Origin: Artocarpus heterophyllus
Taxonomy: Eukaryota > Streptophyta > Magnoliopsida > Rosales > Moraceae
NCBI GenBank assembly: GCA_025403435.1
Contig: CM046330.1
Coordinates: 14,530,239 to 14,594,238 of the forward strand
Direction of reading: 5' to 3'
Length of the DNA stretch: 64,000 nucleotides
Both the position numbers and the translations under genes were made by a program. Position 1 is the stretch's first letter, and every line of letters starts with the position of its first letter. Positions 1 to 59,899 of the stretch are shown here, one piece after another. Below the pieces are notes generated by a model, which saw nothing but the letters and a program-made list of their open reading frames with translations, did not search any database and had not been told where the DNA came from.

Positions 1-1960
1 CTAACGGGTATTGAGGTAATTAAATTAATTTTTAATGTATAAAAAAAAATTGCTTCATTTAAATTTATTTTATAATATTTATTTTTATCTATTTTTAAAT
101 TTTCTAAAATTCTCATATATTTATTTAGTATGATTACTAAAAAGCCTTAGAACTTCTAATAAATCTCAAAAATGTCATATTGGCATTATATGTGTTAAAG
201 TCTTTAGATGAGACATAAGGATATCTTTTCCAACTACTCTTGACCCTCATTTTCTTTATTTCCTCCGTGACATGCTGAAGCATGTCTCCTCTATAATTGT
301 TTCTATCACTTCTTTTCAAAGACTTCATCTTTTCTTCCTTTCTCTTCCACGGTTCCCACACTCTTCTTCTCATTTCTTTGCTGAAGCAAAATACTTAGAG
401 AACTTCTTCAAGGCTGCCATAAAAATCTGCCACCATCACCTCCATTTGAGCAAGAATTTCAGTCATACCGAAGTAAAGGAACCTGTTTTGAAGCCATTTC
501 AAGCTTCCAACTAACCATAATCCGAGGTTAGAATCTTATGAACAAATTTAGTCTTTCATTTATAAATTTTCTTTTATACTAAAGGATTATTCAAATTTAC
601 GTTCTTAAACCTAAGTATATGTTTGTTGCTATTTTGGAGCATATGTATGAAGTCTAAGTGTATATGCCCTAGACATAAAATTTATATTGTTAAACTTTAT
701 AATACCTCTATGGGCAGTGGTTATTTCTTGAAATTCTAAGATTAAATTAAAATAAATTTTATGAATGTAGTTGTATGTTGTGCTTTAGTTTTAATTGTCC
801 TTATGCACGCCTTAGGATCAAGGGAGTATGGAGCTAACGTTAATTGATTCCAGGATTAAGAGACTGTTGATAAGCTTGAAAGGTAGGGATTCTATTACTC
901 ATCTTTTGTGAGGTTTTTATAGAATTAAAATTGATTGTTTTGCCGCAATATATATATATATATATCTATGTTGAACTGATATTATATGTGTATCACATAT
1001 GAAACTATGACATGGACTCGTCTTGTATTGTACGGCGAGGAACATAATGAATTGACATATGTTATAAATTGAGAAGCATGGTTAGGAAAATTAACTCTAT
1101 TAATAATGATTTAATATAGAGAAATTGTGAGACATGAAAAGGGCGACGGTTACGTCCTTGGGCATGAATACCCTAAAAGGTAAAGTAGGGGGAAGGCGAT
1201 GACGCTTCCTTGGGTTGAAAGTCCCAGAACACACTGTACAGGAATCGATTTGGTGAGGACTCGGGGCTTGATGTCCCCTCACCGGAACACCCTTGGAATG
1301 TTTATAGGGTGATCAAGTGCGCCCATTTGGGTCTCGATGAGTTGAGTGATACTTAATTTAACATGGATACCTAGGAACAATGATGATTGGTAATATTTGT
1401 ATAAATGTGTAATTATGACACTTGGTAATGATTAACTACGGTATCCATAAGATGTGATCATAATAAACCTCATAATCTGAAATATGATGTGACTTACTAA
1501 CCATGCAGATTTTAATGTGGTAATGATAAAAACCTAAAGGTGGGTAATGGCTTTCTCTACTGAGCATAGTGTTGCTCATTCCCTTATGTTTATATCTTTT
1601 CAGGACTCACTAAGTGTGAGGTGGCTACGAGAAATATAGTTGAGGAAGCGATGTAACTATATTACATTGGGACTGCTCAATTGTAAAGAATGTTCTTCAT
1701 GATAATGTAAGCATCAATTGTTACTTTCTGTTACTGTATTACAATGTGTTGAGGGTTAAAATGATGATGACAACAGTTTATATTATTAAATTTAAGGTGC
1801 TACATTAAAACTGTGGTTTATTTATCGTTTATATTTTTATTTTTGAGTTGAGAGTTTTCATTTAAGTCCCGGGCAGATTTTATTTTTAAGGTTTTACTTT
1901 TATTATTTATTTTTATTTTATCTCATTAAAAACTGTTAACCCCCACATAGGGGCGTTACA
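1..1960 (+). repeat. 5' LTR of copy A (clipped at window edge)
   Basis: It matches 6210-8164 almost base for base and ends in ggggcgttaca. Bases from about 20 to 815 are the A/C-type U3. Bases 816-1960 are shared with copy B as well. A TA microsatellite at about 949-966 is longer here than in the 3' LTR. Short ORFs in the LTR recur in every copy, have no recognisable product and are treated as non-coding. Confidence 0.93.
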
Positions 1961-1967
1961 GAATTTT

Positions 1968-1980
1968 TGGTATCAGAGCC
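1968..1980 (+). other. Primer-binding site (initiator Met tRNA), copy A
   Basis: The sequence tggtatcagagcc lies 7 bases after the 5' LTR. It is the standard plant retrotransposon site complementary to the 3' end of initiator methionine tRNA, and it fixes the orientation of the element. Confidence 0.9.
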
Positions 1981-3418
1981 TAGGTTCGGTTAACCTAGGG
2001 AGTGTAGCACCACTTTAAAAAAATATATTTTTGAGATGGTTTTGAAGCTGAATTTTTATTGTCATCATCAAAATGAACCTTCACATTGATTTATACAGTC
2101 TAGAAGGATGTAACATGGAAAGGCCATAAAATGAAAATACTAATGGTTATATGAGTACAATAATTACATAGAAGGAAAGTATTAATAGTTATGAGGGAAT
2201 GATAATTATATGGAATGAGTTTATAAGTAGAATGCTTATGAGAGATTCGTATAATATTAGGATCTATAAGCATATCTAATTCGTATAAACGATGAGAAAT
2301 TCGTGTAGATACGAGGATTTAAGAGCCTTTTGTCTCGTGAAAAACAATAAGAAATATAAGGCTTGACTTATTGATTTTAAAGTTTGACATAGATATGCCA
2401 AATTTTTCGTAATTGATTCAAACCTAAGTAATGATTATGTGTGGATTCGATGGAGCACATAAGTGTCAATAACTTTTCTTGAAAGTTCTATTTATTTGAG
2501 GAATATGATATAAGTTGGGAATCATGGTATTGAATCTTGAGAGAGATAAATGTTAGACTTTTGGTCTGTTGAGACTGTGTAAAGTCTAGAATGCATGAAT
2601 CTCAAAATTGGAATATTTCGTTACGTACATTGTATTTAAGTGTATCAGTGAATCTTTTGGTTACCTAAGGTTTTGTTATATGAGGAAATTATATATTGTA
2701 TAAGTAGAATTGTGGGGATTGTAGATGTTCTTAAGTAGTAACATCAAGTGTCTTTGTTCATTGATATGGTCTATGTTGAAAGACGTAAATCGTATTGATT
2801 TCAAGGTTAGTCACATTCTAAACCCTTGGTAGCAATGATGATGAATCCATTGATAGATGTTAAGTATTATCAATAACATATGGGTGTATGCATTGTTCAA
2901 TAAGGTTTTGATTAAAACAAAATTATTTGAGTTGCTGGATCATTCAGGAAGATCCTTGTTGTCGTTAAATTAGATTTGTTGTTTATAGTTAACTTTATCT
3001 ATAGTGGGCTTTAAATTGGGTTTAAGATGTATACAAATTGGTTTTCAATTTTATGTTTGTTATTTAACTCGTTCTAAATGTGTTAAGGCCCGAAACAACC
3101 TGACCATTTTCAACTAAGAACATTTGGGCCTAGTTCAAATCTTAAATCAGTTTGATTCACACTGTCTCTCCCACGTGGTTTCTATACGTGTCATATACAG
3201 TGGTTTAATCATTGTTTACATATACGTTTACTGTGCATAGGAGCTTATTTCTCCGAGTTCACTTTTTCTCTCTTAATTTGTTATTTTCTCTCTAAATCGC
3301 AAATCCTCTTCTTTTTCATTAGAAATTCTTCTTTTCCTCTAAAAGAAGAAGGAATTCTAGGATTCTGCAATTTACTATCTTAATTTTTCCTTTCTATTTA
3401 CTCTTCTTTCATCTCATC
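1981..3418 (+). other. Non-coding leader of copy A with candidate internal promoter
   Basis: No ORF of note is present over 1.4 kb, and the same holds in copies B and C. The last 250 bases change character. A perfect G-box (CACGTG, 3172-3177) is followed by AT-rich sequence and then by a pyrimidine-rich stretch (about 3250-3415) that resembles a plant 5' UTR and leads straight to the ATG of the first ORF. This may be the promoter and leader captured with the gene cassette; the promoter role is inference. Confidence 0.5.
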
Positions 3419-3940
3419 ATGGACCCAAAGTACCAACACCTGAGAAAGTATATCCCATCACTCTCCCAAAAGATTCTTAGAAAGAAATACAAGGCTAGAA
3501 TTACTCGGTTGTGGATTCTTATGCGTTTTGGTATCCCTTGTGATGTGAGAATGTTGATAGAGGGGAAAATCCGTCCGAGTGACTTTAGTCAAGATGTCGG
3601 TTTACCAGGAACAGGTACCAGTCGTAGTGCAATGAAAAGAAGAGCTCGTGCCATCGTGGTCACTTGTAACAAATGTGGAAGACAAAATTGTAACGGTAAA
3701 TGTACTTCACCTAGTTATATGTCTACGAATAGAGAGGATAAAATAAGGTTTTGTAGGGATGGACTTTCAAAGGAGAACTTGGATAGCATCCATCCTCCTC
3801 TCCACGGTCACCCTAGTGGATATGTTCAAGGAGCTATTTTTAAACTCTGGCCTAAATTTTATACAGAAAGACAACGCCTCAGGAATATGGTATTTCTAGA
3901 TCCTGTTTGCCAAGCCATAAGAAAACTAGATGGGGAATAA
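3419..3940 (+). CDS. Basic Cys4-cluster protein of the LOG retroelement (ORF1), copy A
   Basis: The ORF has 173 codons with ATG in the context atcATGG and stop TAA. Residues 1-35 are very basic. A short segment (about 38-47, GIPCDVRMLI) precedes a Gly/Ser/Thr-rich stretch, an arginine cluster KRRAR (73-77) and then Cys83, Cys86, Cys91 and Cys95 (CX2CX4CX3C). The C-terminal 75 residues are unassigned. A gag zinc knuckle would be CX2CX4HX4C, so this is not the normal retroelement knuckle. A basic patch directly followed by a four-cysteine finger, preceded by a short hydrophobic segment, recalls the cysteine-rich nucleic-acid-binding proteins of carlaviruses; this resemblance is tentative and from memory. 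The ORF is intact in all three copies. A nucleic-acid-binding role is inferred, not shown. Confidence 0.75.
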   Translation: MDPKYQHLRKYIPSLSQKILRKKYKARITRLWILMRFGIPCDVRMLIEGKIRPSDFSQDVGLPGTGTSRSAMKRRARAIVVTCNKCGRQNCNGKCTSPSYMSTNREDKIRFCRDGLSKENLDSIHPPLHGHPSGYVQGAIFKLWPKFYTERQRLRNMVFLDPVCQAIRKLDGE

Positions 3941-4584
3941 GTCATCGCTCTATAAAGGTTATTTAGTCTTTACTTATTTGAAGCAGTTTTAGCTGATGAT
4001 TCAACAGTTTGTGTTTTTCTTTTACTCAGAATATTTGCTTTTGTGTTTGAAATAATTGTGATTATTAGATTGATACAGTAAGTGTTAATATCTTATTTAA
4101 TTTATGATTTTCTTAAATATATATATAATAAAATATATTATCTTATCAGACACGTTACATACGGTACAGTAATATGTTTGAATTTTGAAAAGCTTATCCA
4201 GATATTTCAAGATTTGTGTCTCAAATTTCAAAAGTTCTACAGTATTTGTCGTTTATATTAAATTTCTAGACTTGGTGTATATTTGTCAAAAAGTCTACAG
4301 TTGTGTCATGAGGGTCTTCTGTCGAATTGTTCTCAATTGTCAAAAGTTATACAATTAGAGTCTAATCTTTTTCAAAAAGTGAATCAGATTTTCTGTAAAC
4401 TATCAATCACCTTATCTTACTTTCTTATCCGCACAAGATTTTGTTTAAATCTTTGGATTACCTTTTCATTATCTACTCGTCTATCTCTTTAGCCCTTCTT
4501 GTATATTTCTCATCTTTAAAATCTCATGTAGAACCCGAAGTCTAAGTGGAGCAGACATTAAGCAACCACTTCTATAAACCAAAT
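3941..4584 (+). other. Spacer between ORF1 and LOG-like ORF, copy A
   Basis: This is about 640 bases of AT-rich spacer with a TATATATA run near 4119-4136. The only open frame inside it (from 4283) has no ATG start, and nothing in it is recognisable. The same spacer is present in copies B and C. It could hold a second promoter or an intron joining the two ORFs. No splice pair can be chosen from sequence alone. Confidence 0.4.
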
Positions 4585-5235
4585 ATGTCTACCTCCCAGT
4601 CCACGAAGAAAATAAAGAATGTCTGTGTCTTTTGTGGTTCCAGCCTTGGAAAAGATAAAGCTTATTTAGAAGCTGCAAATCACTTAGGGCAAGTCCTAGC
4701 ACGCAAAAAGATTAACATAATCTATGGGGGTGGTAGTATAAAAATGATGGTAAATATGGCACTAGCAGCTAGGTCTAGCGACGCTACTGATGTAAGAATT
4801 TGGCCTCATATTTCAGTTGAAGGAAACCTTTGTAAGGAAGCCATAGGTAAGGGAGAAGGAGTCAGGAGTATCCCTAAAAATTTTAAAGACATAATCTATA
4901 ATTCTGATGCTTTTATAGCATTACCTGGTGGTCTAGGTACTCTTGAGGAAATATTTATAGTTGCTTGTGGACAATTGTTGGGCTTTTATTCCAAACCTTT
5001 GGGACTGTTGAACGTAAAGGGTTTTTATGACGGTCTTTTGAAATTTCTAGATTACGCTGTGGAAGAAAACATCACTACAGAATCGGAGAGACAAATCTTT
5101 GTCACTGCTTCAACAGCTGAGGAATTGATAGATAAAATGCAAATCATACATCCAGAATCCGACACTGCAACATCCAAGCTTGAATGGGAAAGGGAAAGCC
5201 GGGAGCGGCCAATTGATTTGAATCTCCATCTGTAA
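4585..5235 (+). CDS. LOG-like: LOG-like (cytokinin riboside monophosphate phosphoribohydrolase family) protein, copy A
   Basis: LOG enzymes release active cytokinin bases from their riboside 5'-monophosphates in the cytosol. The 216-aa frame starts at the first ATG; the 13 upstream codons open with GTG and are excluded. Family marks are VCVFCGSS (13-20), YGGGSI (47-52), SDAFIALPGGLGTLEE (107-122) with the catalytic Glu at 122, and a KPLGLLN segment (about 137-143). Length is normal for the family. Oddities are that the usual GLMG after GGGSI is KMMV here, and that the segment before SDAF is about three residues shorter and lacks the HxRK arginine. Plant LOG genes have several introns; this copy has none, as expected after capture through RNA. 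Copy A has Ser77 where the other copies have Pro. It may be inactive, altered, or a dimer partner that interferes. Confidence 0.85.
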   Translation: MSTSQSTKKIKNVCVFCGSSLGKDKAYLEAANHLGQVLARKKINIIYGGGSIKMMVNMALAARSSDATDVRIWPHISVEGNLCKEAIGKGEGVRSIPKNFKDIIYNSDAFIALPGGLGTLEEIFIVACGQLLGFYSKPLGLLNVKGFYDGLLKFLDYAVEENITTESERQIFVTASTAEELIDKMQIIHPESDTATSKLEWERESRERPIDLNLHL

Positions 5236-6168
5236 TCTTTTTGTTTTATCTTTGGCATGTAGGCATGTGTGTCCGTATTTCGTGTGTTACGAATAACCGT
5301 TTGCCTTGTATTCTGTGTTTCTTGTGGTACGTTGTTGTTCAATCTTTTAGATTCATTGAGCCTAATGCCGGGATGGCTGGATACGGAGTACTTGATGCTC
5401 TCGAAACGCATCCTTCTTAAGGTCCGATCTTTTGTTTATCGATGTTTTTGTATCCTCTAAGCATGCATGATATGGATAGCTGGTATACGGAGTGCCTTGT
5501 ACTCTCGAAACGTATCTGTATTATGTTTGTAATGTGTAATATTCTGTTAATATTATGTGGAAGTACCAGAGTCAGTTATGGGGATATTCCATATGAAACA
5601 TGAGTATATTATTTGGGTTGAATGTTTGTGTCATGAGGATAGCTGTTTAATGAATAATATGTCGGGTATGTTTGCAACTCTGAGATTCCGTTTAATATCT
5701 CTATGAATAAGTTTAATGTATGGTTTTGAATATAAGTGTTTGTGATATATGTTTTATGATTATGTTTTAGTTTATTAGTTGAGGTATGAAATCAAATATA
5801 TTTGACTTTTCCTTACTCAAAAAGGAAAAGGAACCTAAAGATGAAGTATATAAAATTTCTCTGGCAATCTCCTTAAATGTGATTGTAAATCACAGTCCAT
5901 GGACAATGAAGGACTGGAATCATGATATGGTCAATATGTAGGCCTGATCAGATTCTTAGACTATTATACGGTGTTATAAGTTGAAACTTGTCAGAAATAC
6001 TCTTATTGAGGGATTTAGGAGTAAGATTTATTATGCAAGTAAATAAGTGGAGATACGATAACTTAAATTTGGAGGACAAACAACATTAACGGTTTAGACT
6101 CGGAATTGGAATCATAGTGGAATCATAATTTTTACTAGTATTGCTAGAATTGAAATTTCGAGGACGAA
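5236..6168 (+). other. 3' trailer of copy A
   Basis: No coding signal is visible. Just after the LOG-like stop, a motif of about 40 bases occurs twice with variation (about 5371-5412 and 5472-5513), each containing ctcgaaacg. The rest is AT-rich, conserved among the three copies, and leads to the polypurine tract. Confidence 0.45.
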
Positions 6169-6190
6169 ATTTCTTTAAGGGGGGTAGAGC
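6151..6190 (+). other. Polypurine tract and Tekay-like 3' signature, copy A
   Basis: The purine run aaggggggtag (6177-6187) sits directly before the 3' LTR and would prime plus-strand DNA. The bases before it (tttcgaggacgaaattt) match what I recall at the 3' end of the polyprotein region in plant Ty3/gypsy Tekay/Del chromoviruses, suggesting the element derives from that lineage. Confidence 0.8.
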
Positions 6191-8164
6191 TGTGACACCC
6201 GTTATTCTCCTAACGGGTATTGAGGTAATTAAATTAATTTTTAATGTATAAAAAAAAATTGCTTCATTTAAATTTATTTTATAATATTTATTTTTATCTA
6301 TTTTAAATTTTCTAAAATTCTCCTATATTTATTTAGTATGATTACTAAAAAGCCTTAGAACTTCTAATAAATCTCAAAAATGTCATATTGGCATTATATG
6401 TGTTAAAGTCTTTAGATGAGACATAAGGATATCTTTTCCAACTACTCTTGACCCTCATTTTCTTTATTTCCTCCGTGACATGCTGAAGCATGTCTCCTCT
6501 ATAATTGTTTCTATCACTTCTTTTCAAAGACTTCATCTTTTCTTCCTTTCTCTTCCACGGTTCCCACACTCTTCTTCTCATTTCTTTGCTGAAGCAAAAT
6601 ACTTAGAGAACTTCTTCAAGGCTGCCATAAAAATCTGCCACCATCACCTCCATTTGAGCAAGAATTTCAGTCATACCGAAGTAAAGGAACCTGTTTTGAA
6701 GCCATTTCAAGCTTCCAACTAACCATAATCCGAGGTTAGAATCTTATGAACAAATTTAGTCTTTCATTTATAAATTTTCTTTTATACTAAAGGATTATTC
6801 AAATTTACGTTCTTAAACCTAAGTATATGTTTGTTGCTATTTTGGAGCATATGTATGAAGTCTAAGTGTATATGCCCTAGACATAAAATTTATATTGTTA
6901 AACTTTATAATACCTCTATGGGCAGTGGTTATTTCTTGAAATTCTAAGATTAAATTAAAATAAATTTTATGAATGTAGTTGTATGTTGTGCTTTAGTTTT
7001 AATTGTCCTTATGCACGCCTTAGGATCAAGGGAGTATGGAGCTAACGTTAATTGATTCCAGGATTAAGAGACTGTTGATAAGCTTGAAAGGTAGGGATTC
7101 TATTACTCATCTTTTGTGAGGTTTTTATAGAATTAAAATTGATTGTTTTGCCGCAATATATATATATATCTATGTTGAACTGATATTATATGTGTATCAC
7201 ATATGAAACTATGACATGGACTCGTCTTGTATTGTACGGCGAGGAACATAATGAATTGACATATGTTATAAATTGAGAAGCATGGTTAGGAAAATTAACT
7301 CTATTAATAATGATTTAATATAGAGAAATTGTGAGACATGAAAAGGGCGACGGTTACGTCCTTGGGCATGAATACCCTAAAAGGTAAAGTAGGGGGAAGG
7401 CGATGACGCTTCCTTGGGTTGAAAGTCCCAGAACACACTGTACAGGAATCGATTTGGTGAGGACTCGGGGCTTGATGTCCCCTCATCGGAACACCCTTGG
7501 AATGTTTATAGGGTGATCAAGTGCGCCCATTTGGGTCTCGATGAGTTGAGTGATACTTAATTTAACATGGATACCTAGGAACAATGATGATTGGTAATAT
7601 TTGTATAAATGTGTAATTATGACACTTGGTAATGATTAACTACGGTATCCATAAGATGTGATCATAATAAACCTCATAATCTGAAATATGATGTGACTTA
7701 CTAACCATGCAGATTTTAATGTGGTAATGATAAAAACCTAAAGGTGGGTAATGGCTTTCTCTACTGAGCATAGTGTTGCTCATTCCCTTATGTTTATATC
7801 TTTTCAGGACTCACTAAGTGTGAGGTGGCTACGAGAAATATAGTTGAGGAAGCGATGTAACTATATTACATTGGGACTGCTCAATTGTAAAGAATGTTCT
7901 TCATGATAATGTAAGCATCAATTGTTACTTTCTGTGACTGTATTACAATGTGTTGAGGGTTAAAATGATGATGACAACAGTTTATATTATTAAATTTAAG
8001 GTGCTACATTAAAACTGTGGTTTATTTATCGTTTATATTTTTATTTTTGAGTTGAGAGTTTTCATTTAAGTCCCGGGCAAATTTTATTTTTAAGGTTTTA
8101 CTTTTATTATTTATTTTTATTTTATCTCATTAAAAACTGTTAACCCCCACATAGGGGCGTTACA
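6191..8164 (+). repeat. 3' LTR of copy A
   Basis: This LTR is 1974 bp, starts TGTGACACCC and ends GGCGTTACA, so it has TG...CA termini. It is of the A/C U3 type and lacks the 387-bp block present in copy C. It follows the polypurine tract directly. Confidence 0.93.
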
Positions 8165-32690: not shown

Positions 32691-32730
32691 GCTCTACCCC
32701 CCTTAAAGAAATTTCGTCCTCGAAATTTCA
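32691..32730 (-). other. Polypurine tract and Tekay-like signature, copy B
   Basis: This is the reverse complement of the copy A arrangement: gctctaccccccttaaag followed by aaatttcgtcctcgaaa. It lies directly inside the 3' LTR. Confidence 0.8.
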
Positions 32731-37023: not shown

Positions 37024-37036
37024 GGCTCTGATACCA
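37024..37036 (-). other. Primer-binding site (initiator Met tRNA), copy B
   Basis: ggctctgatacca is the reverse complement of the tggtatcagagcc site in copies A and C. It is separated from the 5' LTR by the same 7 bases. Confidence 0.9.
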
Positions 37037-37043
37037 AAAATTC

Positions 37044-48250: not shown

Positions 48251-50908
48251 TTCTACTGAGAATTTTGGGGATGGGTTAGTGGCTACTAAACAGAAATCAA
48301 ACAAAAGGGACTTCAAGAAAAACAAGAAAGTACAAAAGGATAAGGCTGAAAAACGTTGCTTTATCTGTCATAAATCAGGACATTTCAAAAATAAATGCTT
48401 AGAGAAGAAAAGAAAGTAGTTCAGTAAGGATCTTGGTGAAGTTGATGTAATCTCGGATGGTTATGAGAGTGCTGAGGTTTTGATGATAGCAGATAAGTCA
48501 GAAGAAAATGACTGGGTCCTAGACCCAAGATGCTCCTTTCACATGTGCCCAAACAAGGCGTGGTTCTGTCAATACAAGAGTATAGACGGTGGACAAGTCA
48601 TTCTTGGCAACAATCAACAGTACTCAGTTGAAGGCATTGGCTCGGTGAAGTTGAAGATTTCAAATGGGACTGTTAAAGTTCTTTAAGAAGTAAGACATGT
48701 GCCTGATCTAAAGAGAAACTTGATTTCACTTGGAATGTTAGATTCATCAGGATGTAGTTTCAAGGCTCAAGGTGGAGTTCTAAAGGTTCTGAGGGGGTCA
48801 ATGGTTATCTTGAAAGGAAGCTTGCAACATGGTTTGTACATATTTCAGGGAAAGGTGGAGAGAGGATTTACAGATGCAACAACATGGAGGAAGATGACAA
48901 AGTCAACTTTGTGGCACAACAGATTAGGACATATAAATGAAAGAGGTCTTAATGAACTAAGCAAATAGGGACTTCTAGGAGGTGATAAAGTAATCAAATT
49001 AGATTTCTGTGAGCATTGTATATTTGGAAAGGCACATAGAGTTAAATTTGGTACTATAATACATAGATCGAAGGGGACTCTTGATTACATCCATTCTGAC
49101 TTATGGGGGGCATCAAGAATTGCATCTCATGTTGGGGCCAGATATTTCTTGACCTTAATTGATGACTATTCAAGAAGATTATGGGTTTACATCTTAAAGA
49201 ACAAGAATGATGTCTTTGAAATTTTTAAGAAATGGAAGGTCCTTGTTGAAACTCAAACAGAGAAAAAGGTTAAAAGACTTAGAACAGATAATGGGCTGGA
49301 ATTCTATAGTGATTGGTTTAATTAGTATTGTGGAGAATGTGGGATTTCAAGGCTCTTAACAGTGAGGAAAACCCCTCAATAGAATGGTCTTGCAAAAAGA
49401 ATGAAAAAGACTATACTGGAGAGGGTCATATGTATGTTATCTATTGGTGGGATGCCCAAAACAATTTGGGCAGAAACTGTGGTTACAGCTAGTTTTCTAA
49501 TAAATAGGTGCCCCCTTTATCTGCAATTGGGTTTAAAACACCAATGGAAATATGGTCTGGTCATCCAGCAAAATATGAAATTTTAAAGACTTTTGGGTGT
49601 ATAGCCTATACATATGCAAACAAAGAGAAACTTGAACCAAGAGCCAAGAAATGTGTTTTCCTTGGCTATCTTGAGGGAGTCAAAGGTTACAAGTTATGAT
49701 GTGTTGAGGTAGGGTACCCCAAGACTCTTGTTAGCAGAGATGTGTTCTTTAATGAGGATTATTCTACAAAGAGATTAAGGAGTTGCAGATAGAGGAAAAA
49801 GACAAATCTCCATACAGTTATAGTTTGGAACTTGAGGTGGAGCAAGAAAATGCAACCGACCATACCGAAGTCACTACAAATGAGGATTATGACATTGATG
49901 AAGAACTTCAGGCAAGAGAAGAACCAGCACAACAAGATTCCAGGAACTACAATTTGGTAAGAGACAGACATAAGAGGAATATAAGACCTCTTGAGAGGTA
50001 TGGGGTTTGATGAAATGATTTCTTATGCATTTACAACTGCAACAAATTTAAGTCAAATGGAGCCATCAACCTATTCCCAGGCAATCTAATGTAAAGAAGC
50101 TGATAAGTGGATAGGTGCTATGGAAGAAGAGTATCAATCCTTACAGAAAAACAAAACCTGGGATTTGGTTGACAAACCAAAGGGGCAGAATTGGTAGGAT
50201 GTAAATGGATATTCAAACTAAAGGAAGGAATTCTAAGAGTTCAGTCACCAAGATTGAAAGCCAGATTAGTGGCTAAAGGATACACTCAAAGGGAGGGTAT
50301 TGATTACACATAAGTGTTCTTTCCTGTGGTAAAATATAGCTCCATTAGATTGTTATTGGCTATAGTGGCAAGTCAAAATCTTGAATTAGAGCAGTTGGAT
50401 GTTCAAACTACTTTCCTCCATGTGAATTAGAAGAAAGAATATTCATGACACAACCAAAAGGTTTTGAAGTTAAAGGGTAGGAAGACAAGGCGTGCCTCCT
50501 TAAAAATTCATTGTATGGGTTGAAGCAATCACCTAGACAATGCTATAAAAGTTTTGACATCTTTATGGATAAGGCAGGATTCACAAGAAGCCTTTATGAT
50601 AGCTGTGTTTACTTCAAAGTTGCCAATTCAGGTTCTTTCATCTATTTGTTACTTTATGTAGATGATATGCTTATAGCTTCTAAAGATAAGCATGAAATTG
50701 ATATGGTTAAGCAACAATTACATGATAAATTTGAAATGAAAGATTTGGGGTGTGCTAAATGTATGCAAGGTCAGATGAAACAGGTCAGATGAAACCTTAT
50801 TTTTATCTCAAAGAAAATACTTAAGGACGGTACTAGATAAGTTTAAAATGGACAATGCCAAAACAGTTAAGACTCCTTTGGCTCAACATTTTAAACTATC
50901 AGTATGTC

Positions 50909-53271
50909 TGTGACACCCGTTATTCTCCTAACGGGTATTGAGGTAATTAAATTAATTTTTAATGTATAAAAAAAAAATTGCTTCATTTAAATTTATTTTA
51001 TAATATTTATTTTTATCTATTTTTAAATTTTCTAAAATTCTCCTATATTTATTTAGTATGATTACTAAAAAGCCTTAGAACTTCTAATAAATCTCAAAAA
51101 TGTCATATTGGCATTATGTGTGTTAAAGTCTTTAGATGAGACATAAGGATATCTTTTCCAACTACTCTTGACCCTCATTTTCTTTATTTCCTCCGTGACA
51201 TGCTTCAACATGTCTCCTCTATAATTGTTTCCATCACTTCTCTTCAAAGACTTCATCTTTTCTTCCTTTCTCTTCCACGGTTCCCACACTCTTCTTCTCA
51301 TTTCTTTGCTGAAGCAAAATACTTAGAGAACTTCTTCAAGGCAGCCATAAAAATCAGCCACCATCACCTCCATTTGAGCAAGAATTTCAGTCATACCGAA
51401 GTAAAGGAACCTGTTTTGAAGCCATTTCAAGCTTCCAACTAACCATAATCCGAGGTTAGAATCTTATGAACAAATTTAGTCTTTCATTTATAAATTTTCT
51501 TTTATACTAAAGGATTATTCAAATTTGCGTTCTTAAACCTAAGTATATGTTTGTTGCTATTTTGGAGCATATGTATGAAGTCTAAGTGTATATGCCCTAG
51601 ACAGAAAATTTATATTGTTAAACTTTGTAATACCTCTATGGGCAGTGGTTATTTCTTGAAATTCTAAGATTAAATTAAAATGAATTTTATGAATTGGTTT
51701 GCATATTTGAAAAGTAGCATCCTAGGCTTTCTAACGAGCTATCATAAACCTAAATCGGAGTTGTATTTTATTTTCTAAGAATTATTCAATTTTTGTATTG
51801 GAAACTAGTAAATCTGCCAGTTTGTTATGGTATACCAGCTGCTAACCTGAACCAAGAACCCATCTTTGCTCACCACCTAATTCTTTAATGTCTTGCAACC
51901 TTTCCAATATTATCCTAAGTGATTGATGAATCTTATTAGGGACTAAAACATATAGATTACTTGTTCACATTTTATATTGTGTTAAGACAAAAATTGTTTA
52001 CTGTGGTATTCAAAAGAGATTTATATAAAAGCTTTAATGGCATACTAGTAAGATAGGTTTACACATGATTTATTTATGAATGTAGTTGTATGTTGTGCTT
52101 TAGTTTTAATTGTCCTTATGCACGCCTTAGGATCAAGGGAGTATGGAGCTAACGTTAATTGATTCCAGGATTAAAAGATTGTTGATAAGCTTGAAAGGTA
52201 GGGATTCTATTACTCATCTTTTGTGAGGTTTTTATAGAATTAAAATTGATTGTTTTGCCGCAATATATATATATCTATGTTGAACTGATATTATATGATT
52301 ATCACATATGAAACTATGACATGGACTCGTCTTGTATTGTACGGCGAGGAACATAATGAATTTACACATGTTATAAATTGAGAAGCATGGTTAGGAAAAC
52401 TAACTCTATTGATAATGATTCAATATAGAGAAATTGTAAGACATGAAGAGGGCGACGGTTACGTCCTTGGGCATGAATACCCTAAAAGGTAAAATAGGGG
52501 GAAGGCGATGACGCTTCCTTGGGTTGAAAGTCCCAGAACACACTGTACAGGAATCGACTTGGTGAGGACTCGGGGCTTGATGTCCCCTCACCGGAACACC
52601 CTTGGAATGTTTATAGGGTGATCAAGTGCGCCTATTTGGGTCTCGATGAGTTGAGTGATACTCTATTTAACATGGATACCTAGGAACAATGATGATTGGT
52701 AATATTTGCATAAATGTGTAATTATGACACTTGGTAATGATTAACTACGGTATCCATAAGATGTGATCATAATAAACCTCATAATCTGGAATATGATGTA
52801 ACCTACTAACCATGCAGGTTTTAATGTGGTAATGATAAAAACCTAAAGGTAAGTAATGGTTTTCTCTACTGAGCATAGTGTTGCTCATTCCCTTATGTTT
52901 ATATCTTTTCAGGACTCACTAAGTGTGAGGTGGCTACGAGAAATATAGTTGAGGAAGTGATGTAGCTATATTACATTGGGACTGCTTCAATCGTTGAGAA
53001 TGTTCTTCATGATAATGTAAGCATCAATTGTTACTTTCTGTGACTGTATTACAATGTGTTGAGGGTTAAAATGATGATGACAACAGTTTATATTATTAAA
53101 TTTAAGGTGATACATTTAAAACTGTGGTTTATTTATCGTTTATATTTTTATTTTTGAGTTGAGAGTTTTCATTTAAGTCCCGGGCAAATTTTATTTTTAA
53201 GGTTTTACTTTTATTATTTATTTTTATTTTATCTCACTAAAAACTGTTAACCCCCACATAGGGGCGTTACA
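50909..53271 (+). repeat. 5' LTR of copy C
   Basis: This LTR is 2363 bp, TGTGACACCC to GGCGTTACA. Relative to copy A it has an extra block 51694-52080. That block and the adjoining sequence share the short direct repeat ttatgaat, so copy A could have lost it by slippage or template jumping. Confidence 0.93.
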
Positions 53272-53278
53272 GAATTTT

Positions 53279-53291
53279 TGGTATCAGAGCC
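53279..53291 (+). other. Primer-binding site (initiator Met tRNA), copy C
   Basis: tggtatcagagcc lies 7 bases after the 5' LTR, as in copies A and B. Confidence 0.9.
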
Positions 53292-54768
53292 TAGGTTCGG
53301 TTAACCTAGGGAGTGTAGCACCACTTTAAAAAAATATATTTTTGAGATGGTTTTGAAGCTGAATTTTCATTGTCATCATCAAAATGAACCTTCACATTGA
53401 TTTATACAGTCTAGAAGGATGTAACATGGAAAGGCCATAGAATGAAAATATCAATAGTTATATGAGTACAATAATTATATAGAAGGAAAGTATTAATAGT
53501 TATGAGGGAATGATAATTATATGGAATGAGTTTATAAGTAGAATGCTTATGAGAGATTCGTATAATATTAGGATCTATAAGCATATCTAATTCGTATAAA
53601 CGATGAGATATTCGTGTAGATACGAGGATTTAAGAGCCTTTTGTCTCGTGAAAAACAATAAAAAATATATATATATAAGGCTTGATTTATTGATTTTAAA
53701 GTTTGACATAGATATGCCAAATTTTTCGTAATTGCTTCAAACCTAAGTAATGATTATGTGTGGATTCGATGGAGCACATAAGTGTCAATGTCTTTTCTTA
53801 AAAGTTCTATATATTTGAGGAATATGATATAAGTTGGGAATCATGGTATTGAATCTTGAGATAGATAAATGTTAGACTTTTGGTCTGTTGAGACTGTGTA
53901 AAGTCTAGAATGCATGAATCTCAAAATTGGAATATTTTGTTACGTACATTGTATTTAAGTGTATCAGTGAATCTTTTGGTTACCTAAGGTTTTGTTATAT
54001 GAGGAAATTATATATTGTATGAGTAGAATTGTGGGGATTGTAGATGTTCTTAAGTAGTAACATCTAGTGTCTTTGTTCATTGATATGGTCTACGTTGAAA
54101 GACGTAAATCGTATTGATTTCAAGGTTAGTCGCATTCTAAACCCTTGGTAGTAATGATGATGAATCCATTGATAGATGTTAAGTATTATGAATAACATAT
54201 GGGTGTATGCATTGTTCAATAAGGTTTTGATTAAAACAAAATCATTTGAGTTGCTGGAAGATTGTGTTGTTATGAAATGATTTTAAATATCATTCAGGAA
54301 GATCCTTGTTGTCGTTAAATTAGATTTGTTGTTTATAGTTAACTTTATCTATAGTGGGCTTTGAATTGAGTTTAAGATTCATACAAATTGGTTTTCAATT
54401 TTATGTTTGTTATTTAACTCGTTCTAAATGTGTTAAGGCCCGAAACAACCTGACCATTTTCAACTTAGAACATTTGGGCCTAGTTCAAATCTTAAATCAG
54501 TTTGATTCACACTGTCTCTCCCACGTGGTCTCTATACGTGTCATATACAGTGGTTTAATTATTGTTTACATATACGTTTACTGTGCGTAAGACCTTATTT
54601 CTCCGAGTTCACTTTTTCTCTCTTAATTTGTTATTTTTTCTCTAAATCGCAAATCCTCTTCTTTTTCATTAAAAATTCTTCTTTTCCTCTAAAAGAAGAA
54701 GGAATTCTAGGATTCTGCAATTTACTATCTTAATTTTTCCTTTCTATTTACTCTTCTTTCATCTCATC

Positions 54769-55290
54769 ATGGACCCAAAGTACCAACACATGAGAAAGTA
54801 TTTCCCATCACTCTCCCAAAAGATTCTCAGAAAGAAATATAAGGCTAGAATTACTCGGTTGTGGATTCTTATGCGTTTTGGTATCCCTTGTGATGTGAGA
54901 ATGTTGATAGAGGGGAAAATCCGTCCGAGTGACTTTAGTCAAGATGTCGGTTTACCAGGAACAGGTACCAGTCGTAGTGCAATGAAAAGAAGAGCTCGTG
55001 CCATCGTGGTCACTTGTAACAAATGTGGAAGACAAAATTGTAACGGTAAATGTACTTCACCTGGTTATATGTCTACGAATAGAGAGGATAAAATAAGGTT
55101 TTGTAGGGATGGACTTTCAAAGGAGAACTTGGATAGCATCCATCCTCCTCTCCACGGTCACCCTAGTGGATATGTTCAAGGAGCTATTTTTAAACTCTGG
55201 CCTAAATTTTATACAGAAAGACAACGCCTCAGGAATATGGTATTTCTAGATCCTGTTTGTCAAGCCATAAGAAAACTGGATGGGGAATAA
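54769..55290 (+). CDS. Basic Cys4-cluster protein (ORF1), copy C
   Basis: The frame has 173 codons and is intact. It has Met8 where A and B have Leu, and Phe11 and Gly98 as in B. The arginine patch at 73-77 and the Cys83/86/91/95 cluster are unchanged. The pyrimidine-rich leader and G-box upstream (near 54521-54526) are conserved. Function is unknown; nucleic-acid binding is inferred from the basic patch and Cys cluster. Confidence 0.75.
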   Translation: MDPKYQHMRKYFPSLSQKILRKKYKARITRLWILMRFGIPCDVRMLIEGKIRPSDFSQDVGLPGTGTSRSAMKRRARAIVVTCNKCGRQNCNGKCTSPGYMSTNREDKIRFCRDGLSKENLDSIHPPLHGHPSGYVQGAIFKLWPKFYTERQRLRNMVFLDPVCQAIRKLDGE

Positions 55291-55933
55291 GTCTTCGCTC
55301 TATAAAGGTTATTTAGTCTTTACTTATTTGAAGCAGTTTTAGCTGATGTTCAACAGTTTGTGTTTTTCTTTTACTCAAAATATTTGCTTTTGTGTTTGAA
55401 ATAATTGTGATTATTAGATTGATACAGTAAGTGTTAATATCTTATTTAATTTATGATTTTCTTAAATATATATATAATAAAATATATTATCTTATCATAC
55501 ACGTTACATACGGTACAGTAATATGTTTGAATTTTGAAAAGCTTATCCAGATATTTCAAGATTTGTGTCTCAAATTTCAAAAGTTCTACAGTATTTGTCG
55601 TTTATATTAAATTTTTAGACTTGGTGTATATTTGTCAAAAAGTCTACAGTTGTGTCAAGAGGGTCTTCTGTCGAATTGTTCTCAATTGTCAAAAGTTATA
55701 CAATTAGAGTCTAATCTTTTTCAAAAAGTGAATCAGATTTTCTGTAAACTATCAATCACCTTATCTTACTTTCTTATCCGCACAAGATTTTGTTTAAATC
55801 TTTGGATTACTTTTTCATTACCTACTCGTCTATCTCTTTAGCCCTTTTTGTATATTTCTCATCTTTAAAAACTCATGTAGAACCCGAAGTCTAAGTGGAG
55901 CAGACATTAAGCAACCACTTCTTTAAACCAAAT

Positions 55934-56584
55934 ATGTCTACCTCCCAGTCCACGAAGAAAATAAAGAATGTCTGTGTCTTTTGTGGTTCCAGCCTTGGAA
56001 AAGATAAAGCTTATTTAGAAGCTGCAAATCACTTAGGGCAAGTCCTAGCACGCAAGAAGATTAACATAATCTATGGGGGTGGTAGTATAAAAATGATGGT
56101 AAATATGGCACTAGCAGCTAGGTCTAGCGACGCTACTGATGTAAAAATTTGGCCTCATATTCCAGTTGAAGGAAACCTTTGTAAGGAAGCCATAAGTAAG
56201 GGAGAAGGAGTCAGGAGTATCCCTAAAAATTTTAAAGACATAATCTATAATTCTGATGCTTTTATAGCATTACCTGGTGGTCTAGGTACTCTTGAGGAAA
56301 TATTTATAGTTGCTTGTAGGCAATTGTTGGGCTTTTATTCCAAACCTTTGGGTCTGCTGAACGTAAAGGGTTTTTATGACGGTCTTTTGAAATTTCTAGA
56401 TTACGCTGTGGAAGAAAACATCACTACAGAATCGGAGAGACAAATCTTTGTTACTGCTTCAACAGCTGAGGAATTGATAGATAAAATGCAAATCATACAT
56501 CTAGAATCCGACACTACAACATCCAAGCTTGAATGGGAAAGGGAAAGCCGGGAGCGGCCAATTGATTTGAATCTCCATCTGTAA
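55934..56584 (+). CDS. LOG-like: LOG-like protein, copy C
   Basis: The 216-aa frame is intact from the conserved ATG. It keeps CVFCGSS, YGGGSI and PGGLGTLEE, with the same missing HxRK segment. Private changes are Lys71, Ser88, Arg129, Leu190 and Thr195; Arg129 replaces Gly just after the PGGxGTxxE helix and could affect folding. Another change (Tyr to Phe) lies upstream of the ATG and is not coding. Confidence 0.83.
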   Translation: MSTSQSTKKIKNVCVFCGSSLGKDKAYLEAANHLGQVLARKKINIIYGGGSIKMMVNMALAARSSDATDVKIWPHIPVEGNLCKEAISKGEGVRSIPKNFKDIIYNSDAFIALPGGLGTLEEIFIVACRQLLGFYSKPLGLLNVKGFYDGLLKFLDYAVEENITTESERQIFVTASTAEELIDKMQIIHLESDTTTSKLEWERESRERPIDLNLHL

Positions 56585-57498
56585 TCTTTTTGTTTTATCT
56601 TTGGCATGTAGGCATGTGTGTCCGTATTTCGTGTGTTACGAATAACCATTTGCCTTGTATTCTGTGTTTCTTGTGGTACGTTGTTGTTCAATCTTTTAGA
56701 TTCATTGAGCCTAATGCCGGGATGGCTGGATACGGAGTACTTGATGCTCTCGAAACGCATCCTTCTTAAGGTCCGATCTTTTGTTTATCGATGTTTTTGT
56801 ATCCTCTAAGCATGCATGATATGGATAGCTGAGTACGGAGTGCCTTGTACTCTCGAAACGTATCCGTATCATGTTTGTAATGTGTAATATTCTGTTAATA
56901 TTATGTGGAAGTACCAGAGTCAGTTATGGGGATATTCCATATGAAATATGAGTATATTATTTGGGTTGAATGTTTGTGTCATGAGGATAGCTGTTTAATG
57001 AAAAATATGTCGGGTATGTTTGCAACTCTGAGATTCCGTTTAATATCTCTATGAGTAAGTTTAATATATAGTTTTGAATAAAAGTGTTTGTGATATATGT
57101 TTTATGATTATGTTTTAGTTTATTAGTTGAGGTATGAAATCAAATATATTTGACTTTTCCTTACTCAAAAAGGAAAAGGAACCTAAAGATGAAGTATATA
57201 AAATTTCTCTGGCAATCTCCTTAAATGTGATTGTAAATCACAGTCCATGGACAATGAAGGACTGGAATCATGGTATGGTCAATATGTATGCCTGATCAGA
57301 TTCTTAGACTATTACACGGTGTTATAAGTTGAAACTTGTCAGAAATACTCTCATTGAGGGATTTAGGAGTAAGATTTATTATGCAAGTAAATGAGTGGAG
57401 ATACGATAACTTAAATTTGGAGGACAAACAACATTAACGGTTTAGACTCGGAATTGGAATCATAATGGAATTAAAATTTTTACTAGTATTGCTAGAAT

Positions 57499-57538
57499 TG
57501 AAATTTCGAGGACGAAATTTCTTTAAGGGGGGTAGAGC
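57499..57538 (+). other. Polypurine tract and Tekay-like signature, copy C
   Basis: The arrangement is the same as in copy A: cgaggacgaaatttc, then the purine run aaggggggtag, directly before the 3' LTR. Confidence 0.8.
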
Positions 57539-59899
57539 TGTGACACCCGTTATTCTCCTAACGGGTATTGAGGTAATTAAATTAATTTTTAATGTATAAA
57601 AAAAAAATTGCTTCATTTAAATTTATTTTATAATATTTATTTTTATCTATTTTTAAATTTTCTAAAATTCTCCTATATTTATTTAGTATGATTACTAAAA
57701 AGCCTTAGAACTTCTAATAAATCTCAAAAATGTCATATTGGCATTATGTGTGTTAAAGTCTTTAGATGAGACATAAGGATATCTTTTCCAACTACTCTTG
57801 ACCCTCATTTTCTTTATTTCCTCCGTGACATGCTTCAACATGTCTCCTCTATAATTGTTTCCATCACTTCTCTTCAAAGACTTCATCTTTTCTTCCTTTC
57901 TCTTCCACGGTTCCCACACTCTTCTTCTCATTTCTTTGCTGAAGCAAAATACTTAGAGAACTTCTTCAAGGCAGCCATAAAAATCAGCCACCATCACCTC
58001 CATTTGAGCAAGAATTTCAGTCATACCGAAGTAAAGGAACCTGTTTTGAAGCCATTTCAAGCTTCCAACTAACCATAATCCGAGGTTAGAATCTTATGAA
58101 CAAATTTAGTCTTTCATTTATAAATTTTCTTTTATACTAAAGGATTATTCAAATTTGCGTTCTTAAACCTAAGTATATGTTTGTTGCTATTTTGGAGCAT
58201 ATGTATGAAGTCTAAGTGTATATGCCCTAGACAGAAAATTTATATTGTTAAACTTTGTAATACCTCTATGGGCAGTGGTTATTTCTTGAAATTCTAAGAT
58301 TAAATTAAAATGAATTTTATGAATTGGTTTGCATATTTGAAAAGTAGCATCCTAGGCTTTCTAACGAGCTATCATAAACCTAAATCGGAGTTGTATTTTA
58401 TTTTCTAAGAATTATTCAATTTTTGTATTGGAAACTAGTAAATCTGCCAGTTTGTTATGGTATACCAGCTGCTAACCTGAACCAAGAACCCATCTTTGCT
58501 CACCACCTAATTCTTTAATGTCTTGCAACCTTTCCAATATTATCCTAAGTGATTGATGAATCTTATTAGGGACTAAAACATATAGATTACTTGTTCACAT
58601 TTTATATTGTGTTAAGACAAAAATTGTTTACTGTGGTATTCAAAAGAGATTTATATAAAAGCTTTAATGGCATACTAGTAAGATAGGTTTACACATGATT
58701 TATTTATGAATGTAGTTGTATGTTGTGCTTTAGTTTTAATTGTCCTTATGCACGCCTTAGGATCAAGGGAGTATGGAGCTAACGTTAATTGATTCCAGGA
58801 TTAAAAGATTGTTGATAAGCTTGAAAGGTAGGGATTCTATTACTCATCTTTTGTGAGGTTTTTATAGAATTAAAATTGATTGTTTTGCCGCAATATATAT
58901 ATCTATGTTGAACTGATATTATATGATTATCACATATGAAACTATGACATGGACTCGTCTTGTATTGTACGGCGAGGAACATAATGAATTTACACATGTT
59001 ATAAATTGAGAAGCATGGTTAGGAAAACTAACTCTATTGATAATGATTCAATATAGAGAAATTGTAAGACATGAAGAGGGCGACGGTTACGTCCTTGGAC
59101 ATGAATACCCTAAAAGGTAAAATAGGGGGAAGGCGATGACGCTTCCTTGGGTTGAAAGTCCCAGAACACACTGTACAGGAATCGATTTGGTGAGGACTCG
59201 GGGCTTGATGTCCCCTCACCGGAACACCCTTGGAATGTTTATAGGGTGATCAAGTGCGCCCATTTGGGTCTCGATGAGTTGAGTGATACTCTATTTAACA
59301 TGGATACCTAGGAACAATGATGATTGGTAATATTTGCATAAATGTGTAATTATGACACTTGGTAATGATTAACTACGGTATCCATAAGATGTGATCATAA
59401 TAAACCTCATAATCTGGAATATGATGTAACCTACTAATCATGCAGGTTTTAATGTGGTAATGATAAAAACCTAAAGGTGAGTAATGGTTTTCTCTACTGA
59501 GCATAGTGTTGCTCATACCCTTATGTTTATATCTTTTCAGGACTCACTAAGTGTGAGGTGGCTACGAGAAATATAGTTGAGGAAGTGATGTAACTATATT
59601 ACATTGGGACTGCTTCAATCGTTGAGAATGTTCTTCATGATAATGTAAGCATCAATTGTTACTTTCTGTGACTGTATTACAATGTGTTGAGGGTTAAAAT
59701 GATGATGACAACAGTTTATATTATTAAATTTAAGGTGCTACATTTAAAACTGTGGTTTATTTATCGTTTATATTTTTATTTTTGAGTTGAGAGTTTTCAT
59801 TTAAGTCCCGAGCAAATTTTATTTTTAAGGTTTTACTTTTATTATTTATTTTTATTTTATCTCACTAAAAACTGTTAACCCCCACATAGGGGCGTTACA
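57539..59899 (+). repeat. 3' LTR of copy C
   Basis: This LTR is 2361 bp and carries the same 387-bp extra block as the 5' LTR, so the block was already in the parent element. It ends at the duplicated atgtc. Confidence 0.93.

Follow-up and report, generated by a model that had tools for sequence, protein, structure and literature searches.

A young LTR retrotransposon family of Artocarpus heterophyllus without gag-pol carries a LOG-fold gene and a putative relative of flexivirus nucleic-acid-binding protein genes

The window, a stretch of 64,000 nucleotides of Artocarpus heterophyllus DNA, contains three copies (A, B, and C) of an LTR retrotransposon, as the first-pass annotation had observed (Table 1). 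The LTR ends are of the TG...CA type (TGTGACACC...GTTACA), and the LTR pairs are 99.4-100% identical in 17 of the 19 copies examined. The primer-binding site TGGTATCAGAGCC, which we take to be of the initiator Met-tRNA type, follows the 5' LTR, a polypurine tract precedes the 3' LTR, and A, B, and C each keep two uninterrupted ORFs, of 173 and 216 aa; the primer site, tract, and two-ORF cassette claimed as common to the three copies were all located. The LTRs, also said to be common, are indeed paired and near-identical within each copy, but self-BLAST showed that the 5' half in B is of another type than in A and C. Copy A had been placed at 1..8164; its 3' end stands, but its true start lies ahead of the window. 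The perfect 5-bp target site duplications (TSDs) of B and C were verified, and A has one likewise, which was beyond the earlier view and becomes visible only when 100 bases of sequence beyond the window (L021) are added.

Table 1. Features of the three element copies in the window. LTR identities leave gaps uncounted; BLAST with gaps counted gives 99.5, 99.3, and 99.5% for A, B, and C. Element ends are from self-BLAST and boundary search.
Feature	Coordinates	Strand	Remarks
Element A, 5' LTR through 3' LTR	1..8164	+	First 19 bases precede the window; TSD TTGCC/TTGCC
Element B	30301..39432	-	TSD ATACC at 30296..30300 and 39433..39437
Element C	50909..59899	+	TSD ATGTC at 50904..50908 and 59900..59904; sits in a copia RT/RNaseH frame
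LTRs of A	3' LTR 6191..8164; 5' LTR up to 1960	+	Pair 99.80% identical
LTRs of B	3' LTR 30301..32690; 5' LTR 37044..39432	-	Pair 99.41% identical
LTRs of C	3' LTR 57539..59899; 5' LTR 50909..53271	+	Pair 99.62% identical
Primer-binding site of A	1968..1980	+	TGGTATCAGAGCC
Primer-binding site of B	37024..37036	-	
Primer-binding site of C	53279..53291	+	
Polypurine tract region of A	6160..6190	+	
Polypurine tract region of B	32691..32721	-	
Polypurine tract region of C	57508..57538	+	
ORF1 of A	3419..3940	+	173 aa; putatively flexivirus NABP-like (basic run and C-x2-C-x4-C-x3-C)
ORF1 of B	34935..35456	-	
ORF1 of C	54769..55290	+	
ORF2 of A	4585..5235	+	216 aa; LOG-like, Asn in place of catalytic Arg
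ORF2 of B	33641..34291	-	
ORF2 of C	55934..56584	+	

Among the 17 copies whose LTRs are paired, 14 have an exact 5-bp TSD: the three in the window and 11 of the 14 fetched from elsewhere, the TSDs of L025, L026, and L032 being inexact. The 14 exact TSDs are mutually different. Element C splits a copia reading frame, which is restored at the empty site. Segmental duplication was ruled out, since the outer flanks of the 17 copies (200 bp each, only 81 for the left flank of A) have no cross-copy match and the exact TSDs all differ. Paired LTRs, differing TSDs, unshared flanks, and the restored copia frame together bear out the proposal that the cassette moved within the element. The copies are nearly identical (LTR K2P 0-0.006), and at least 150 of the LOG-like ORFs in the 985-Mb host genome are intact: all 150 scored matches, the best-ranked by score among 6120 first-look candidates, are full length and free of stops.

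No gag, protease, reverse transcriptase (RT), RNase H, or integrase domain was found by Pfam at E≤1 in ORF1, ORF2, or the other frames of C, namely all 21 other stop-to-stop frames of at least 50 aa touching the interior and all 8 in the 5' LTR, where the sole matches are three at E 0.1-0.21, far under the cut-off. This rules out a gag-pol hidden in those frames and agrees with the earlier statement that no replication proteins are encoded; the interior thus lacks the set of domains by which an autonomous Ty3/gypsy or copia element is recognized. We conclude that the family is non-autonomous: an LTR retrotransposon of high copy number and very young age that lacks gag-pol. LARDs are non-autonomous LTR elements with long LTRs, a non-coding interior of more than 4 kb, no gag-pol, and presumed mobilization in trans. 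The window family resembles them in its long LTRs, its interior of more than 4 kb, its absent gag-pol, and its presumed trans-mobilization, whereas it holds two ORFs that appear to be under selection and so falls outside the LARD definition. The polypurine-tract motif is merely reminiscent of chromovirus-like Ty3/gypsy elements; the family has no pol.

ORF2 matches PF03641 (E 6.7e-22) and also LDcluster4, a SLOG family profile of Pfam; its best PDB match is At2g37210, and the PGGxGTxEE motif is present in A, B, and C, which upholds the naming of this cargo gene as LOG-like. The first-pass annotation went on to suggest that an expressed copy would produce active cytokinin and could alter growth, so that the element would gain from stimulated cell division. 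The retained fold and motif are in keeping with such an enzyme, as is the catalytic Arg of its relatives, which 112 of the 121 tree rows retain. In the window copies, however, this residue (Arg99; the positions compared are those named for CgLOG) is replaced by Asn, Glu122 is retained, and the prenyl-site residues Met96, His97, Lys100, Glu125, and Trp129 are lost. Lys100 is retained in just 13 of the 121 rows, and the prenyl-binding site is therefore altered in most relatives too. Because Arg99 and all five of these prenyl-site residues are missing, cytokinin activation by the window ORF2 is unlikely as judged from its sequence, and we give very little credence to an active enzyme that benefits the element. 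A scan of IMG/VR for LOG confirmed 19 of 45 stretches in viral contigs, with best-segment identities of 25-62%, the high values being short pieces.

ORF2 would have originated as a captured plant LOG. The prenyl-site Lys is mostly lost in its clade, and the catalytic Arg would have been lost later in the window family, as in a few scattered relatives; the protein would now be retained as a nucleotide-phosphate-binding, non-catalytic partner. SLOG domains elsewhere bind ADP-ribose-derived nucleotide signals. A more specific role, in which ORF2 would act as a sponge that blunts host immune signaling by such nucleotides and ORF1 on RNA silencing, is consistent with the kept phosphate-binding loop, the lost catalytic Arg, and the LDcluster4 match, but such nucleotides are only candidate ligands and we consider this role quite unlikely.

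ORF1, which had been left unnamed, is the more unusual half of the cassette. Its four-Cys finger and basic run are nearly invariant across 126 aligned rows. A total of 855 relatives were found in plants at E≤0.01; among the 120 matches listed, most of them nameless, the named ones are from Populus, Xanthoceras, Acer, Hibiscus, Rhamnella, and Orobanche, and none has a virus name. One search gave 15 matches at E≤1, 14 of which carried a precomputed PF01623 assignment, and when Pfam was run on 126 family members at E≤0.001, PF05515 and PF01623 were each found in 97. One relative (P0149) exceeds both curated cut-offs with 33.8 and 28.5 bits, and the match spans residues 39-125 and 39-121, about 85 residues that extend past the finger. 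The window ORF1 itself has no match to either profile at E≤0.001 and lies under the curated cut-offs (16.5 bits vs 23, and 11.5 vs 20.9), which only relatives pass.

The AlphaFold model of ORF1 was poor with 17 input sequences (pLDDT 50) and reached pLDDT 82 with the alignment of 126. When this model was searched against BFVD, 17 of the first 20 matches were named as nucleic-acid- or RNA-binding protein, NBP, or RNA silencing suppressor, and the 18 named viruses among these 20 are presumably all flexiviruses; the best match has E 0.017 and TM 0.39/0.47 (query TM below 0.5), and none reaches E≤0.001. Nothing useful was found for ORF1 in PDB by sequence, nor any match by fold, and 0 of 54 pattern stretches were confirmed in an IMG/VR scan. 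From profile matches and predicted structure taken together, ORF1 appears to be a basic zinc-finger protein, one of a plant family akin to the flexivirus (carlavirus-type) nucleic-acid-binding proteins (NABPs). The likeness to these Cys-rich proteins (PF01623 and PF05515; p12, as partly described in PMC7588395) lies in the profile matches of the relatives, the predicted fold neighbors, and the basic run with its Cys finger; the window ORF1 differs in being sub-threshold in Pfam, in being housed in a DNA element, and in having a putative function. According to the same source, p12 of chrysanthemum virus B is a transcriptional activator in the nucleus and a silencing suppressor in the cytoplasm (PMC7588395).

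Whether ORF1 came from a virus is a separate matter. It may belong to a plant-born zinc-finger family that is convergent on, or ancestral to, the viral NABPs and was never virus-derived. The named relatives in many plants, the missing virus names among the 120 matches listed, and the remoteness of the likeness to viruses all fit such an origin, but the Pfam match of the relatives continues past the finger over some 85 residues, and the first 20 matches of the predicted structure are almost all one kind of viral protein. On balance we regard a plant-born ORF1 as somewhat doubtful.

Six other loci of the same genome were examined, and in all six ORF1 adjoins LOG with order and orientation kept. 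Five of them (L057-L061) form one subfamily with 91-93% DNA identity, so the cassette is known from only two subfamilies besides that of the window. The ORF1 frame is interrupted in three of the six, and a finger Cys is changed in two (L057 and L061). The sixth cassette (L062) is flanked by short repeats (81%, L063) that do not resemble LTRs. One of the six lies in a second framework (L064/L065), which has an LTR pair of 92.5%, the primer site TGGCGCCGTTGCT, a gag (PF03732), an aspartic protease (PF13650), and, by eye, the TSD ATGAA; neither an RT nor an integrase frame was seen in it. We take TGGCGCCGTTGCT to be of the Asp-tRNA type and the framework to be Athila-type. The cassette therefore predates the window element, being present in two divergent subfamilies, one of them in a second LTR framework with gag and protease. 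In another species, a LOG (P0050) and an ORF1 (P0149) are both on contigs of 8723, a hint of linkage for which chance is not negligible.

Within the family, ORF1 has a pN/pS of 0.31, with a synonymous excess over neutral simulation (P=0.0016). Between subfamilies, dN/dS by Nei-Gojobori count is 0.16-0.20 for ORF1 and 0.24-0.35 for ORF2 at a dS of about 0.8 or more, the values for the most distant subfamilies being rough because dS exceeds 1. These ratios indicate purifying selection on both cassette genes. Since the copies are nearly identical, little can be read from frames staying open within the family, and the within-family conservation of ORF2 is biased because the 19 copies were picked by their ORF2 match. 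Could the cassette be a passenger, two host-derived genes without function that are open merely through the youth of the copies? The near-identity of the copies would allow it; stops in ORF1 (0 seen vs 1.9 expected under neutrality, P=0.15) are not significantly depleted, and the non-coding inter-ORF spacer is about as conserved as ORF1 (1.3% vs 1.5% divergence). The synonymous excess, the low dN/dS between subfamilies, and the kept order and orientation in six of six loci of two other subfamilies speak against a passenger, an already disfavored reading that we think highly unlikely.

A role for ORF1 as a replication accessory deserves more weight. A nucleocapsid-like ORF1 would package or chaperone the element RNA into helper particles and not act against silencing, and ORF2 would be structural or assisting. 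The near-invariant finger and basic run suit this role. So does the lack of a gag in the window element, and a related element in another framework has the cassette next to a gag and a protease. The C-x2-C-x4-C-x3-C spacing, however, differs from that of the retroviral CCHC knuckle, the cassette in L064 adjoins a gag that already has its own CCHC knuckle (by eye), and the nearest predicted structural neighbors of ORF1 are viral NABPs and suppressors. We consider the accessory role rather unlikely.

Our preferred explanation, to which we give about an even chance, is a non-autonomous retrotransposon that uses a virus-type RNA-binding, anti-silencing gene together with a dead LOG-fold partner; its structure is as described above, and its function would be as follows. 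The element RNA would be copied and integrated by enzymes of autonomous Ty3/gypsy elements, and the ORF1 protein would bind nucleic acid and shield this RNA, most probably through a weakening of RNA silencing in the host, by analogy with its viral relatives; it may act on host transcription too. The cassette occurs in two LTR frameworks with a putatively virus-type ORF1 and a LOG-fold partner, and it may therefore be a selfish fitness module that fits different LTR elements. More tentatively, a "stealth cassette" of a flexivirus-type silencing suppressor and a LOG fold turned from enzyme to ligand binder could be spreading through plant genomes in this way, and some "LOG-like" gene models (e.g., Populus LOGL10) could be its members; we see this as possible.

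The first-pass annotation knew of no plant LTR element with a LOG cargo, but PMC9289625, with reference to Steinbauerova et al. (2011), already reports a YgdH/LOG domain in Ty3/gypsy elements from two species of Citrus and, at a looser filter, from Populus trichocarpa. These are likewise plant LTR retrotransposons with a LOG-family domain. They were found via their RT, whereas the window family has no gag-pol, and section 12 of PMC9289625 mentions neither an NABP partner nor active-site loss. The same source describes Ty3/gypsy elements of two Phalaenopsis orchids that carry an AlkB-type m6A RNA demethylase domain. These retrotransposons, too, captured an RNA-related domain, and one of a type that plant viruses also seem to carry; those elements bear RT and a single domain, whereas the window family has a two-gene cassette and lacks gag-pol. 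VANC of VANDAL elements is a plant transposable-element protein that counters host silencing, and its likeness to ORF1 is at most in the putative role; VANC proteins differ in being sequence-specific (PMC5735166, PMC10398659, in the parts available). CsFRLS1 of cucumber is another case of flexivirus-related sequence in the nuclear DNA of a plant (PMC3136472, in part), but it is an endogenous replicase-like sequence, and ORF1 is instead a conserved gene of an element. No retrotransposon with a carlavirus-type nucleic-acid-binding protein was found in the open-licence literature, where the closest search listed only a paper on viral proteases, and the word carlavirus is absent from PMC7264820, PMC11963269, and PMC6317226.

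If the stealth-cassette reading is true, the window family would, as far as the open-licence literature shows, be the first among LTR retrotransposons to use a virus-type silencing suppressor. How retrotransposons persist against plant RNA silencing is an open question, and here a very recently active family carries an apparently selected, putative relative of viral proteins, of which at least one is known to suppress silencing. Element copies that do not act as cytokinin enzymes, or have ceased to do so, may swell the "LOG" gene families of plant genomes. The family would also be a DNA-borne reservoir for tracing the origin of the flexivirus cysteine-rich protein.

Three LTR elements with the structure proposed in the first-pass annotation (A, B, and C) were found in the window by self-comparison and border search. 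The K2P distances of their LTR pairs are 0.002–0.006. The primer site TGGTATCAGAGCC follows the 5' LTR in all three, and the same purine-rich tract precedes the 3' LTR. The 5' half of the B LTRs is unlike that of the A and C LTRs, A and C carry no B-type 5' half, and a single interior is common to both LTR types; one interior appears to have been combined with different LTR subtypes by exchange. Removal of C and one copy of its target site duplication (TSD) joins the flanks in a single copia RT/RNaseH frame, so that the insertion of C was precise; the upstream part of this frame matches RVT_2, and the downstream part alone gave no RVT_2 match. The proposal that no replication proteins are encoded was borne out by a Pfam scan of the C frames: apart from ORF1 and ORF2, all frames of at least 50 aa touching the interior (21) or lying in the 5' LTR (8) were free of retrotransposon domains.

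Features of the window and of neighboring or related stretches of the same genome (L handles, own coordinates); LTR identities computed without counting gaps
Feature	Position	Strand	Remarks
Element A	19 bases before window start to 8164	+	TSD TTGCC; LTR pair 99.80%
Element B	30301-39432	-	TSD ATACC; LTR pair 99.41%
Element C	50909-59899	+	TSD ATGTC; LTR pair 99.62%
Older LTR-like pieces	15002-15555, 19877-20193, 40076-40374		68-76% similar to 5' half of B LTRs
Matching stretches	13568-15267 and 40112-41510		68-74%; LTR-end-like motif at 13568-13582
Copia element (gag, integrase, RT pieces)	47884-50900 and 59905-60098	+	Split by C
Another copia-type gag	45671-45964
Host-gene-like, NAD-dependent epimerase	63002-63778	-	PF01370
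Host-gene-like, exon-like frames	26798-28058	+	No Pfam match in two scanned; B lies ~2 kb beyond
Copy L032	1-374; 374-9393		5' LTR directly preceded by another interior end
Replication-factor-A C-terminal-like frame in L063	1209-1577		PF08646, below cut-off; ~2.6 kb from L062 cassette
RT, RNase H, integrase (Pfam) element in L067	1386-6081	-	Adjoins L058 cassette, opposite strand

The family is mobile and has undergone a recent burst. A search of the 985-Mb assembly (334 contigs; window at G000:C4:14530239-14594238) with ORF2 gave at least 150 scored places among 6120 candidates, all 150 full length and stop-free; because these are the best-scoring 150, their number is a minimum and the sample is biased. 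The copia elements, LOG-type genes, and primer sites fit a plant genome. Our copy set of 19 comprised A, B, C, and 16 of the ORF2 matches, the 16 being spread over 13 contigs. Both LTRs are present in 17 (L024 is nested or rearranged, and L027 runs off its stretch), with LTR identities of 99.4–100%. Exact 5-bp TSDs, all different, were found in 14 of these 17 (exceptions: L025, L026, and L032), and no flank matched another in the 200 bp outside each paired-LTR copy (81 for the left of A). L032 looks like a tandem LTR-interior-LTR array produced by recombination. ORF1 has no internal stop in any of the 19 copies; L022 ORF1 and L028 ORF2 were each one final base short in the BLAST cut.

The window ORF1 had no Pfam match at E ≤ 0.001, and its direct scan remained below threshold (Viral_NABP, 16.5 bits against a cut-off of 23; Carla_C4, 11.5 against 20.9). 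PF01623 was precomputed on 14 of its first 15 relatives, and a profile search gave 855 relatives at E ≤ 0.01, the best 120 of which are mostly unnamed, the named sources being Populus, Xanthoceras, Hibiscus, Acer, Rhamnella, and Orobanche. Of 126 family members, 97 matched PF05515 and 97 matched PF01623 with E ≤ 0.001, and one relative (P0149) exceeded both curated cut-offs over a matched stretch of 83 residues. Some relatives represent clusters of hundreds of sequences (P0155, 566; P0188, 315), as one would expect of repeats. A KRR run and Cys83, 86, 91, and 95 are among the nearly invariant positions. The AlphaFold model (pLDDT 82) had no structural neighbor in the PDB. The names given to the top 20 BFVD matches are nucleic-acid- or RNA-binding protein, NBP, or RNA silencing suppressor for 17 and "15kDa protein" for one, with two lacking a name; by their taxonomy, all 18 viruses that are named presumably belong to the flexiviruses. 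None of the BFVD matches reached an E-value below 0.001. Among carlaviruses, p12 of chrysanthemum virus B is a protein of the kind named in these matches and is described as a transcriptional activator and silencing suppressor (PMC7588395).

As a LOG-like protein, ORF2 matched PF03641 (E 6.7e-22) and the PDB structure of At2g37210 (E 5.4e-41), and is ~40–49% identical to named proteins of Populus, Xanthoceras, Reevesia, and Diplodiscus. One study gives Arg99 and Glu122 as catalytic in CgLOG, and Met96, His97, Lys100, Glu125, and Trp129 as the plant-type prenyl site (PMC4979012). In A, B, and C, both Glu of PGGxGTxEE are kept, Arg99 is replaced by Asn, and the prenyl-site positions are Ile, Pro, Phe, Ile or Val, and Gly or Arg, respectively. 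The earlier suggestion that an expressed copy could alter growth through active cytokinin is made unlikely by the loss of the catalytic Arg and the prenyl-site residues. For a FastTree phylogeny of 121 proteins, we combined 113 database proteins (those of 195–245 aa among the 119 of P0002–P0120), six own-genome loci, A, and C, leaving out B. Arg occupies the catalytic column in 112 rows; the others have Lys (4), Gln (2), Pro (1), or Asn (2), the two Asn rows being A and C, which alone lack Arg among the eight own-genome rows. Judged from this alignment, loss of the catalytic Arg is rare, yet it also occurs outside the window family. Of the 121 rows, only 13 retain Lys100, and 115 retain Trp129. 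All eight LOGs from elements of this genome fall into a single clade (support 0.997), nested in a large clade which contains Populus "LOGL10" gene models and is separated from Musa LOG1-like proteins by a long branch. Four Populus proteins of the large clade (P0005, P0007, P0016, and P0039; three named LOGL10) lack Lys100; these cytokinin-enzyme models may represent copies of elements that were annotated as belonging to the host. A plant LOG would have been captured long ago, the prenyl-site Lys disappearing early and the catalytic Arg later in the window family.

The cassette is conserved beyond this family. A canonical Musa LOG (P0117) gave at least 150 matches in the assembly among 5633 candidates (44–51% identity; 116 of the 150 listed stop-free). 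In all of the best six, in which linkage was checked (L057–L062), an ORF1 relative lies upstream on the same strand as the LOG. L057–L061 form one subfamily (91–93% DNA identity), so that the six loci add only two subfamilies to that of the window. L057, L060, and L062 have a wholly open ORF1 frame, that of L058, L059, and L061 is interrupted, and a finger Cys is changed in L057 and L061. Extended as L064–L066, L057 proved to be a complete LTR element unlike those of the window (LTRs 92.5% identical; primer site TGGCGCCGTTGCT; TSD ATGAA, read from printed junctions), encoding gag (PF03732), an aspartic protease (PF13650), then ORF1 and LOG; inspection by eye of its open frames from ~100 aa upward, with Pfam run on three frames, showed no RT or integrase. 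At the DNA level, its similarity to the window element is confined to the two ORFs and one 27-bp stretch; that of the L062 subfamily extends to the inter-ORF spacer and to sequence downstream of both ORFs. Enzymes such as RT, RNase H, and integrase do exist in the genome, because the L067 element beside L058 has them. The gag-like frame of this element has no Pfam match, its DNA is 66–67% identical to the L064 gag and protease, and its leader is 75% identical to that of L064; this arrangement suggests a rearrangement between elements. As a helper with the window's LTRs, the L067 element was rejected.

Both ORFs have been under selection. Within the family, ORF1 shows 19 synonymous and 22 non-synonymous changes against a neutral expectation of 10.0/29.1 (P 0.0016), and ORF2, by which the copies were chosen, 14/14 against 8.2/18.8 (P 0.011). 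Pairs of copies differ on average by 2.4% upstream (n = 16), 2.0% downstream (n = 18), and 1.5, 1.3, and 0.7% in ORF1, the inter-ORF spacer, and ORF2 (n = 19 each); a simple reading of these raw values is weakened because divergence in the spacer does not exceed that in ORF1. Between subfamilies (dS 0.8–2.1; loci with broken or unstarted frames left out), dN/dS was 0.16–0.20 for ORF1 (A, C, L057, L060, L062) and 0.24–0.35 for ORF2 (A, C, L057, L058, L059, L061, L062), and A versus C gave 0.21 and 0.35. The higher ratios within L057–L061 (0.34–0.75) are expected of decaying copies.

The LOG cargo had been put forward as undescribed in plant LTR elements; an earlier report already places LOG domains in plant Ty3/gypsy elements (PMC9289625). 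In the open-licence literature searched, we found no virus-type NABP partner of LOG, no two-gene cassette shared by two LTR frameworks, and no dead LOG active site in an element. The data establish mobility, a recent burst, conservation of the cassette, selection, and the disappearance of catalytic and prenyl-site residues from the LOG. We propose that the window family would be mobilized in trans, that ORF1 may act as an RNA-binding anti-silencing protein, and that ORF2 is probably a non-catalytic nucleotide-phosphate binder. The silencing step is the weakest link, and for the mechanism as a whole we consider the chances about even. This bold reading of the cassette is testable.
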